A stretch of 37,975 nt of DNA. Source: a virus. How positions within the stretch are numbered: position 1 is the stretch's first letter; the number at the start of each line of letters is the position of its first letter. Both the position numbers and the translations under genes were made by a program. Positions 7,944 through 10,532 of the stretch are shown one piece after another. The stretch covers positions 1 to 37,975 of IMG/VR virus record IMGVR_UViG_3300025769_000319, one strand, 5' to 3'. The notes below the pieces were generated by a model. It worked only from the letters and a program-made list of their open reading frames with translations, had not been told where the DNA came from and made no database searches.

Positions 7944-8171
7944 ATGGTATTCACAGAACAACAAAAAAAGCATTTTTGCAGAATGATCGAAGAACGAGTC
8001 ATGAACTCAAAGTTGACCTATATTGAGGCAATTCTTGAGTGCTGTGAACAGATGAATTTGGAACCTGAAACGGCAGGCAAGTTTTTGAATCCGCCTCTCA
8101 AGGAAAAGTTAGCAGTTGAGTTTGAAGACATCAATCTTTTGCCTAAGACAAAATCCAAACTTCCTATTTGA
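7944..8171 (+). CDS. 33: gp33-like late transcription co-activator
   Basis: A 75-aa protein. In T4, gp33 bridges the sliding clamp gp45 and RNA polymerase carrying gp55, to activate late promoters. The sequence matches the short, helical gp33 pattern of T4-type phages: a helix-forming middle (LTYIEAILECCEQMNLEPETAGKF), then PLKEKLAVEFEDINLLPK and a hydrophobic C-terminal LPI that could be the clamp-contacting end. It sits directly upstream of gp32; in T4 genes 33 and 32 are also close (with 59 between). Little ribosome site is visible before ATG 7944, in keeping with a near-leaderless transcript from the promoter at 7910-7937. Confidence 0.65.
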   Translation: MVFTEQQKKHFCRMIEERVMNSKLTYIEAILECCEQMNLEPETAGKFLNPPLKEKLAVEFEDINLLPKTKSKLPI

Positions 8172-8195
8172 CATTCAAGTAAAAAAGAGTATAAT
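8168..8195 (+). promoter_or_regulatory. sigma70-type promoter for gp32
   Basis: TTGACA at 8168-8173, a 16-nt spacer and TATAAT at 8190-8195 are exact consensus boxes with near-ideal spacing. The -35 box overlaps the stop codon of gp33. Predicted transcription start is near 8202, giving a leader of about 66 nt before the gp32 ATG. Confidence 0.8.
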
Positions 8196-8207
8196 TGATA
8201 ATTCAGT

Positions 8208-8251
8208 GGTGGGGAGTTCCCACCGTCATCAAGTGCGAGGGAGATCCTCGC
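8208..8251 (+). promoter_or_regulatory. twin-hairpin 5' leader of gp32, candidate translational operator
   Basis: Two 6-bp hairpins with 5-nt loops lie in the gp32 leader. Hairpin 1 is GGTGGG-GAGTT-CCCACC (8208-8224). Hairpin 2 is GCGAGG-GAGAT-CCTCGC (8235-8251). They are separated by 10 nt. The stems differ in sequence but both loops read GAGWT closed by a G-C pair, so structure and loop are kept while stems vary. The ribosome site AAGGA (8255-8259) follows directly. T4 gp32 represses its own translation through a leader pseudoknot; this leader could play the same role with a different RNA shape. Confidence 0.5.
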
Positions 8252-8267
8252 GGAAAGGATTTGCAAC

Positions 8268-9128
8268 ATGAGTTTTGCAGACATGAAGAAAAATGCTAAG
8301 GGTTCGCTCGAAACCCTACAGCAAAAGTTGGAAGAGACAAACAAGACTGCCAGTTACAAGGATGATCGTTTCTGGCGTCCAGAACTTGACAAGTCGAGCA
8401 ATGGTTATGCAGAAATTCGATTTCTGCCTGCTCCCGAAAGCGAAGATCTTCCTTGGGCGAAGTTGTACTCCCACGCTTTCAAGGGACCGGGTGGTTGGTA
8501 TATCGAAAATTCTCTGACCACTAAGGGTGGTAAGGATCCTGTGTCCGAGATGAACAGCCAACTTTGGAACAGTGGGTTGGATAGCGATAAGGATATCGCA
8601 CGAGAGAGGCGCCGTAAGCTTCAGTACATCTCAAACATTTATGTAATTTCGGATCCTGCTAACCCCCAGAATGAAGGAAAGGTTTTCCTCTACAAGTATG
8701 GTAAGAAGATCTTCGATAAGATCAACGAAGCCATGACTCCTGAGTTTCAGGATGAAGAGGCAGTCAATCCCTTCAACTTCTGGACTGGTGCTACCTTCAA
8801 GTTGAAGGTTCGCAAGGTCGCAGGGTATGTCAACTACGACAAGTCCCACTTCGATCCGCCGTCGGCTCTCAACGAGGACGATGGAGAACTCGAAAGGATT
8901 TGGAAGAGTGAATACTCTCTGACCGATCTGGTTGCTGATGATAAGTTCAAGAGTTATGAAGAACTCTCGAATCGTCTCCAGCAGGTTCTTGGAGGGGACG
9001 CCAAGGCCCGTGCTGAGGATACAACGACGGTGGAGGAGCAATCCTCACCGGCAGTCACCAGTGATCCTGAGCCTCAACAGGAAGAAAGCGCCATGTCGTT
9101 CTTTGAACGACAACTGAACGAAGATTGA
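8268..9128 (+). CDS. 32: gp32 single-stranded DNA-binding protein
   Basis: A 286-aa protein close to the 301-aa T4 gp32. It coats ssDNA cooperatively during replication, recombination and repair. The basic N-terminus (ADMKKNAKGSLETLQQKL) corresponds to the cooperativity domain. The core has FWRPELDKSSNGYAEIRFLP, HAFKGPGGWYIENSL and KDPVSEMNSQLW, then YISNIYVISDPANPQNEGKVFLYKYGKKIFDKI. The acidic C-terminal tail ends in SFFERQLNED, the protein-protein contact region. The cysteines that bind zinc in T4 gp32 are absent (no Cys anywhere), as in cyanophage gp32. It has its own promoter (8168-8195), a structured leader and a strong terminator, so it forms a single-gene transcription unit, though read-through from gp33 is possible. 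Confidence 0.95.
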   Translation: MSFADMKKNAKGSLETLQQKLEETNKTASYKDDRFWRPELDKSSNGYAEIRFLPAPESEDLPWAKLYSHAFKGPGGWYIENSLTTKGGKDPVSEMNSQLWNSGLDSDKDIARERRRKLQYISNIYVISDPANPQNEGKVFLYKYGKKIFDKINEAMTPEFQDEEAVNPFNFWTGATFKLKVRKVAGYVNYDKSHFDPPSALNEDDGELERIWKSEYSLTDLVADDKFKSYEELSNRLQQVLGGDAKARAEDTTTVEEQSSPAVTSDPEPQQEESAMSFFERQLNED

Positions 9129-9150: not shown

Positions 9151-9182
9151 AAACCCCACCTCTTTCGAGGTGGGGTTTTTTA
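9151..9182. terminator. bidirectional intrinsic terminator after gp32
   Basis: A 12-bp perfect stem (AAACCCCACCTC at 9151-9162 with GAGGTGGGGTTT at 9167-9178), loop TTTC, followed by Ts on the + strand. On the minus strand the hairpin is followed by TTCTTTTT. It therefore serves gp32 and the convergent tape-measure operon, whose stop codon is at 9183-9185. Confidence 0.92.
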
Positions 9183-10532
9183 TCATCCCATTCTTTGTCG
9201 CCATTCTGGCACACTGAATGTTTGATTTGTAAAGAATCTATTAAATGCTTCTTTCGCAGGTCCCTCAGATACTCCACTTTCCTGACCAACCGCTTGGGGG
9301 CCGGGACCAGGACTTTGGGCTGTGTATTGATTTGCTGCTACATCAGATTCTCTTACTATTTCATTTTTAGGTTTGCCTATTTCTTTGATAATTTTATCTG
9401 TTTTTGTTTCTAGTTGTTTTACTGCGGTTGACACATTTGTTGAATTCGATAAGGTTTGATTATATTCGCTGAATGACTGTGTTTTGGCAATATTATTTGA
9501 ATTGGAAATGTTAGTTGTGTTGTTTCCCTGTATCAAATTTTGAGCAGATTGTTTGTTGATCATATTCGAGGAGAAACTTTGATTGCTGATGCTTGCCGGT
9601 GAGGGTACATCTGGTGTCATTGTGGTCGATGATGGAGTTCCTACTGCACTTTTCGACGCTGCTGTGGTCGATGATGGAGTTCCTACTGCACTTTTCGACG
9701 CTGCAATAGGCGTTACCATCTCTGGACCTTTTTCTCCCAACAATCCGAGGGTTGGTTTGGTTATCATGCCACCCATAGCAAACATGGGAACCACCCCTGC
9801 TTGTTCTTTGATTCTTTCTTTTATCTTCGTACTATCAACATGCCTTTCTTTTCCATTCACATACACCTTAGTTGATTCGGGTTGAATCATATTTCTTACT
9901 AAACTAGTAAAGTGACTGTCGTTATAGTTTTTTAAGTCTTGAACTGAGTTGTTATTTGAGATTTTAGAATTTTCTACTGTTATAAATTCGCTCTTTTTAT
10001 CAGAAAACTTGTTTTCTAATTGGTTTAGAGTGTTATTTTGTCTATTGTTTAGTATTTGCCTAGTAGAATTATCATCGTTAGATTCAGAATTGCTTACATT
10101 CTTGACATTTGTATCACCGTTTAATTCAGAATTGCTTACATTCTTGACATTTGTATCACCGTTTAATTCAGAATTGCTTACATTCTTGACATTTGTAGTT
10201 GAAAATGCCTTGGGGTAACTATTATTGTAATTGGTTGTTGTGTTAAATATATTTTTGACAAATTGTTTGATGATCTTTTCGTTAAGTGACGAATTTTTCG
10301 ATGCATCACCTTTATTTGTGCTTGCTGGGTCTAGAATTTTCTGTTCTAATTTGCTTGGAGAAGTGTTTTCTTTGAGTTCAGGTAAAAATAAAGTAGGTTG
10401 AGGCAGTAATGTCCCAGTTTCTCTTTTTTTCAGAAGAGATGACTTGTTTTTAAACGGTTTTTTTGACGCTTTAATAGTAGGTTTTTGCATTTGATTCCTC
10501 TTGTTCTCTTCTTGCGTTTTCCTTTTCGACAT
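9183..10532 (-). CDS. tape-measure-like tail protein
   Basis: A 449-aa protein, Asn/Ser/Lys/Thr-rich and mostly low complexity. Near residues 250-275 it has MFAMGGMITKPTLGLLGEKG followed by PEMVTP, the Gly-rich 'GG-I-x-P-T-x-LLGEKGPE' motif typical of the C-terminal part of phage tape-measure proteins. The start ATG 10532 lies inside the gp51-like frame, a 62-nt overlap. The position right after a frameshifted gp26/gp51 pair and near gp48 fits the role T4 gives to gp29. It is shorter than T4 gp29 (590 aa) and carries two sets of perfect 14-residue tandem repeats. It could instead be a hub-associated protein carrying only the motif. Confidence 0.55.
   Translation of the reverse strand: MSKRKTQEENKRNQMQKPTIKASKKPFKNKSSLLKKRETGTLLPQPTLFLPELKENTSPSKLEQKILDPASTNKGDASKNSSLNEKIIKQFVKNIFNTTTNYNNSYPKAFSTTNVKNVSNSELNGDTNVKNVSNSELNGDTNVKNVSNSESNDDNSTRQILNNRQNNTLNQLENKFSDKKSEFITVENSKISNNNSVQDLKNYNDSHFTSLVRNMIQPESTKVYVNGKERHVDSTKIKERIKEQAGVVPMFAMGGMITKPTLGLLGEKGPEMVTPIAASKSAVGTPSSTTAASKSAVGTPSSTTMTPDVPSPASISNQSFSSNMINKQSAQNLIQGNNTTNISNSNNIAKTQSFSEYNQTLSNSTNVSTAVKQLETKTDKIIKEIGKPKNEIVRESDVAANQYTAQSPGPGPQAVGQESGVSEGPAKEAFNRFFTNQTFSVPEWRQRMG
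9622..9705 (-). repeat. 42-bp tandem duplication in the tape-measure-like gene
   Basis: Two adjacent copies (9622-9663 and 9664-9705), differing at most in the final base. Each encodes 14 residues, AASKSAVGTPSSTT. The unit length is a multiple of three, so the frame is kept. The near-identity at DNA level points to a recent duplication. Confidence 0.95.
10084..10197 (-). repeat. 42-bp tandem triplication in the tape-measure-like gene
   Basis: Copies at 10084-10125 and 10126-10167 are identical, and a third runs to 10197 before diverging. Each encodes 14 residues, TNVKNVSNSELNGD. The period equals that of the unrelated duplication at 9622-9705. Confidence 0.95.

Follow-up and report, generated by a model that had tools for sequence, protein, structure and literature searches.

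The single-stranded-DNA-binding protein gp32 is a classic case of a DNA-binding protein acting as repressor of the mRNA that encodes it, and how it distinguishes this mRNA from other nucleic acid is unclear. In T4 and RB69, the repression works through a pseudoknot in the leader together with an unstructured tail in which UUAAA is repeated (PMC535899, PMC3014915), and a 2004 paper left open if gene 32 is regulated at all in T4 relatives that lack the pseudoknot (PMC535899). A 37,975-base IMG/VR record (the whole stretch of DNA analysed here, "the window"), which represents a T4-like phage with gp33-like, gp32 and tail genes, raises this question again. Its gp32 is homologous to the T4 and RB69 gp32 structures, and a preliminary description of the window had reported, between a promoter and the gp32 ribosome site, two hairpins of equal size separated by a short spacer. 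Our coordinates agree exactly with that report (Table 1). Is this leader a regulatory RNA, and if so, what reads it?

Table 1. Features of the gp32 locus in the window (HP1 and HP2, hairpins 1 and 2).
Feature	Position	Strand	Details
gp33-like late-transcription regulator	7944..8171	+	PHROG 254, E 5e-17; just 5' of the gp32 promoter; context, outside the element
Sigma-70-type promoter TTGACA-16-TATAAT	8168..8195	+	-35 box 8168-8173, -10 box 8190-8195; 12/12 consensus positions
HP1	8208..8224	+	6-bp stem GGTGGG/CCCACC, loop GAGTT; starts at about +5 to +7 of the predicted transcript
Spacer HP1-HP2	8225..8234	+	unpaired, 10 nt
HP2	8235..8251	+	6-bp stem GCGAGG/CCTCGC, loop GAGAT; adjoins the Shine-Dalgarno sequence
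Shine-Dalgarno sequence GGAAAGGA	8252..8259	+	8 nt 5' of the ATG; unpaired in the centroid fold
gp32, single-stranded-DNA-binding protein	8268..9128	+	286 aa; PHROG 224, E 3e-114; start codon ATG at 8268
Intrinsic terminator	9153..9182	+	12-bp stem followed by a T run; directly 3' of gp32, between convergent genes

Within the window, both hairpins are present in the minimum-free-energy and the centroid folds of the leader (z = -2.2). With both strands counted, this is the one place where twin hairpins with 6-bp stems and 5-nt loops occur, and 40 dinucleotide shuffles of the window contained none.

The comparison with relatives was based on an unbiased set of 80 gp32 loci from IMG/VR, fetched by protein similarity alone. 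Twin hairpins lie directly 5' of gp32 in 13 of these loci, with different stem sequences. When the 13 are aligned with the window (14 sequences), nine of the 12 base pairs are changed on both sides (37 cells) and 98.2% of cells are paired; the score of 0.65 compares with at most 0.15 in slid controls and was reached by none of 500 shuffles. Further copies came from three pattern scans, one on HP2 and two ("twin patterns") on loops and inner pairs only. The twin patterns gave 136 distinct matches, 119 in front of gp32 and 17 elsewhere, and both stems form in every one of the 119 gp32-linked matches versus two of the 17 others (Fisher p = 4e-18), each of these two lying in repetitive-looking sequence. 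The pairing of the outer pairs is not a selection effect, because these pairs were absent from the twin patterns. In an alignment of 60 sequences, nine of the 12 pairs again covary (187 cells), with a score of 0.72 against 0.22 in shuffles (0 of 500 reaching the observed value); slid controls stayed at or below 0.19. As a side observation, two GAGTT-loop hairpins lie away from gp32 in an apparently repetitive stretch at L222:11339-11374 (+).

The loops behave differently from the stems. In HP1 the loop is nearly invariant as GAGUU (rarely GAGGU, GAGUA, UAGUU or AUGGU) and in HP2 as KAGWU (rarely with A or C at the end), figures to be read with caution for the pattern-derived set, since the scans themselves specified the loop. 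Among the unbiased 13, the exact GAGUU is found in nine HP1 loops, while the stems take about nine forms. The spacer measures 7-17 nt in relatives, mostly 10-13 nt, and is 74% A+T across all copies. The observation first made on the two hairpins of the window, namely that stems differ whereas loops and size are kept, is thus borne out by covarying stems and hardly changed loops among relatives, and the covariation analysis of related gp32 leaders that had been proposed finds the hairpins in place and compensatory changes within them. It is chiefly these compensatory changes in nine of 12 pairs that make us practically certain that the twin hairpins are a real RNA element.

Inverted repeats just downstream of a promoter could also be a DNA-level feature, such as an operator palindrome where transcription begins, or a site used in replication or recombination. 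A symmetric DNA palindrome tolerates G-U and A-C equally, whereas the six variable inner pairs contain 13 G-U cells and no A-C cell, which argues that selection acts on the sense RNA strand and not on a DNA palindrome. Moreover, the stems vary freely with compensation, and the orientation relative to gp32 is identical in all gp32-linked copies. We consider a role at the DNA level highly unlikely.

The element is tied to one gene. Searched with a covariance model, the window yields one hit of 66.4 bits (next best 10.5). The same holds for 24 carrier contigs, which measure up to 157 kb and may be incomplete genomes: each has one copy, scoring 42-71 bits, and the next best hit reaches at most 12.2. 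A regulon, in the sense of further copies in the same phages, was sought in these 24 contigs and nothing above 12.2 bits was seen; isolated GGKAGWTCC matches elsewhere belong to no second element.

When gp32 is placed on a tree by maximum likelihood, all 71 carriers fall into a single clade, which also contains one non-carrier (L035; two changes), although the share of carriers within the clade may be overestimated because carriers were enriched by the pattern scans. Phages outside the clade have gp32 and lack the element, which is therefore not needed for gp32 as such. It is absent from the Pelagibacter phages HTVC008M and Mosig, from P-SSM2, Bellamy and DSL-LC02 and from three single-cell viruses, and no cultured carrier was found among the isolates checked. 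None of 18 gp32 relatives on bacterial and archaeal contigs (many probably mis-binned) has it, and BLAST of leader DNA against a phage collection gave nothing meaningful with two queries, the second a composite leader. As for the host, psbA was looked for as a clue in 14 contigs and found in none. Within gp32, the clade is marked by R114 (71 of 71 carriers; mostly Q elsewhere), K20, Y30, K31 and R37. R114 adjoins the stretch aligned with T4 K110-S114, which is part of the nucleic-acid-binding surface of gp32 (PMC535899); the clade-marking residues may reflect shared ancestry only. In the alignment, the window protein does not keep the cysteines that bind zinc in T4 gp32 (around residues 80-100), so its fold is presumably stable without that site.

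The setting of the element is also conserved. A promoter matching at least nine of 12 consensus positions occurs here in 99 of 115 upstream regions of relatives, shuffled upstream sequences mostly reaching eight or fewer. From the end of the -10 box to HP1 the distance is about 5-12 nt in most copies (median 9 nt), which puts HP1 close to the start of the predicted transcript. The end of HP2 is mostly 12-16 nt 5' of the start codon, where it touches the Shine-Dalgarno sequence. Of 61 scorable twin-clade loci, 60 have a convergent gene next to gp32, and in 55 of these gp32 is followed by an inverted repeat of 8 bp or more. Judging from promoter, terminator and convergent neighbour, the gp32 mRNA is apparently monocistronic and a transcription unit of its own. 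Upstream, the end of a gp33-like gene is seen in 50 of the 71 carriers, mostly about 83-117 nt 5' of gp32, and in the window the -35 box overlaps the stop codon of that gene. Downstream, a minus-strand open reading frame (9183-10532) contains two arrays of perfect or near-perfect 42-base tandem repeats (10070-10197 and 9621-9704), which encode repeated peptides.

A hairpin at or near the 5' end might mainly shield a long-lived gp32 mRNA from decay, and the T4 gene 32 mRNA is indeed the most stable T4 message (PMC3014915). Stability alone, however, needs neither conserved loops in both hairpins nor a second hairpin against the Shine-Dalgarno sequence, nor would it restrict the element to one gene, and we regard protection as an improbable main function.

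The element very probably exerts post-transcriptional control of gp32, and this control is probably mediated by a bound protein that represses. Whether the repressor is gp32 itself we judge to be evenly balanced. The reading that we favour, at about even chances, is that the twin hairpins form a cis-acting RNA operator for gp32, most likely for autogenous translational repression. The operator would sit in the 5' leader of the monocistronic gp32 mRNA, and a protein, probably binding cooperatively, would read the (G/U)AG(A/U)U-type loop of each hairpin. Bound ligand and HP2 would then fall inside the ribosome footprint and keep translation from starting, while without ligand the Shine-Dalgarno sequence would be free and gp32 produced. 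In a less certain step, gp32 in excess over single-stranded DNA would shut off its own synthesis. The A/U-rich unpaired stretches between the hairpins and after HP2 could hold about one gp32 monomer each. By analogy, the autogenous logic would be that of T4 gene 32, with the twin hairpins replacing the pseudoknot and the UUAAA tail.

The comparison supports such an operator in that the element is conserved as RNA, lies against the ribosome site, occurs once per phage and is found only 5' of gp32. Against gp32 as the reader it counts that gp32-type proteins prefer unstructured nucleic acid and that a 5-nt loop is short. Of the proposal made from the window, that this is a different RNA operator for gp32, the parts that stand are a conserved RNA element, unlike the T4 pseudoknot and in one-to-one association with gp32; the operator role itself, with gp32 or another protein bound, stays a probable interpretation. 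That a twin-hairpin operator stands in place of the T4 pseudoknot across the whole clade of uncultivated phages is a still more tentative extension.

That the loop is conserved in both hairpins suggests a reader with sequence specificity, perhaps a dimer, and another RNA-binding protein of this kind, encoded by phage or host, might control gp32 alone. A candidate would be the phage translational repressor RegA, present in four of 14 carrier contigs, mostly partial genomes, but RegA sites have been described as lacking RNA structure (PMC3014915). One target per genome is, furthermore, unusual for a dedicated trans-acting regulator, which leaves this explanation rather unlikely.

The preliminary description had offered a further reader, a CsrA/Rsm-type repressor, for which the GGA of both stem-loop junctions and of the ribosome site would be the target. 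The window indeed has GGA at each of these three sites, and HP1 carries it in nearly every copy. The hairpins resemble CsrA/Rsm targets in that they are small, come in tandem, have GGA next to the loop and lie close to a Shine-Dalgarno sequence. They differ from them in that the GGA of the HP2 junction is not conserved, being kept in 72 of 119 copies and replaced by GUA in 47 (39%). In addition, the first G of GGA is base-paired, and the triplet lies outside what we take to be the usual ANGGAN loop context of such sites. No csrA was detected in 16 carrier phage contigs (a search on the phage side, in which a positive control was detected), and CsrA would be expected to regulate several targets, whereas each phage offers one. 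This alternative, therefore, did not hold up and appears very improbable. A RegB-type GGAG is mostly present in HP1, while 39% of HP2 copies have GUAG; a search for regB (PF10715) gave no match, nor did it in the control genomes.

How does the favoured reading, an operator for gp32, compare with known systems? With the T4/RB69 gene 32 operator the element shares the gene, the place 5' of the ribosome site, a structured leader, a single target and the expected autogenous logic; it is unlike it in consisting of two simple hairpins with conserved 5-nt loops and in having a promoter of its own at the 5' end of the leader. Complementarity of the loops to the spacer, the tail or the other loop, as in a pseudoknot or kissing loops, was no better than in shuffled controls. 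As for UUAAA repeats, TTAAA is found at most once, in eight of 119 leaders, and TTAA two or more times in nine of 119. With neither pseudoknot nor UUAAA repeats found, the element may work like the gene 32 operator yet fall outside that structural type. The T4/RB69 operator of gene 43 (DNA polymerase), likewise a replication gene, is similar in that a small hairpin whose loop is conserved lies close to the ribosome site; it is read by the gene's own product (PMC3014915), but it is one hairpin with a UAAC loop, whereas here two hairpins with KAGWU-type loops precede gp32. STAXI (PMC2864571) likewise is a repeated RNA element sometimes found near genes for single-stranded-DNA-binding proteins; it consists of repeated pseudoknots with frequent UUCG loops, unlike the twin hairpins, which gave no pseudoknot signal. 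No Rfam family matches by covariance model at gathering score, and no published description was found in the open-access literature, although an earlier description elsewhere is possible. The twin hairpins are a real, apparently undescribed RNA family, probably a new form of a known kind, the leader operator of a phage single-stranded-DNA-binding protein. As a strongly covarying, single-copy, gp32-only element in a large clade, it makes gene 32 regulation without a pseudoknot directly testable, with more than 100 natural variants on offer for comparison, and it could serve to mark these uncultivated phages.

Finally, other gp32 leaders were viewed over the last 60 nt before gp32 in the non-carriers among L001-L080 and in L184, L186 and L187. 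Cyanophage-type leaders have no hairpins and carry repeated AATCC units (for example, CCAAATCCAATTAATCCGAGGTAATCCG); two or more AATCC/T units occur in 43 of 75 non-carrier leaders, and such repeats may represent a different, unstructured gp32 operator. In groups near the twin clade, CGTACA-type repeats lie 5' of gp32 (L010, L022, L023, L025, L029, L046 and L076), and in three of these leaders (L023, L029 and L046) the promoter is followed by a single hairpin with different loops; the leaders of these groups may be intermediate types.
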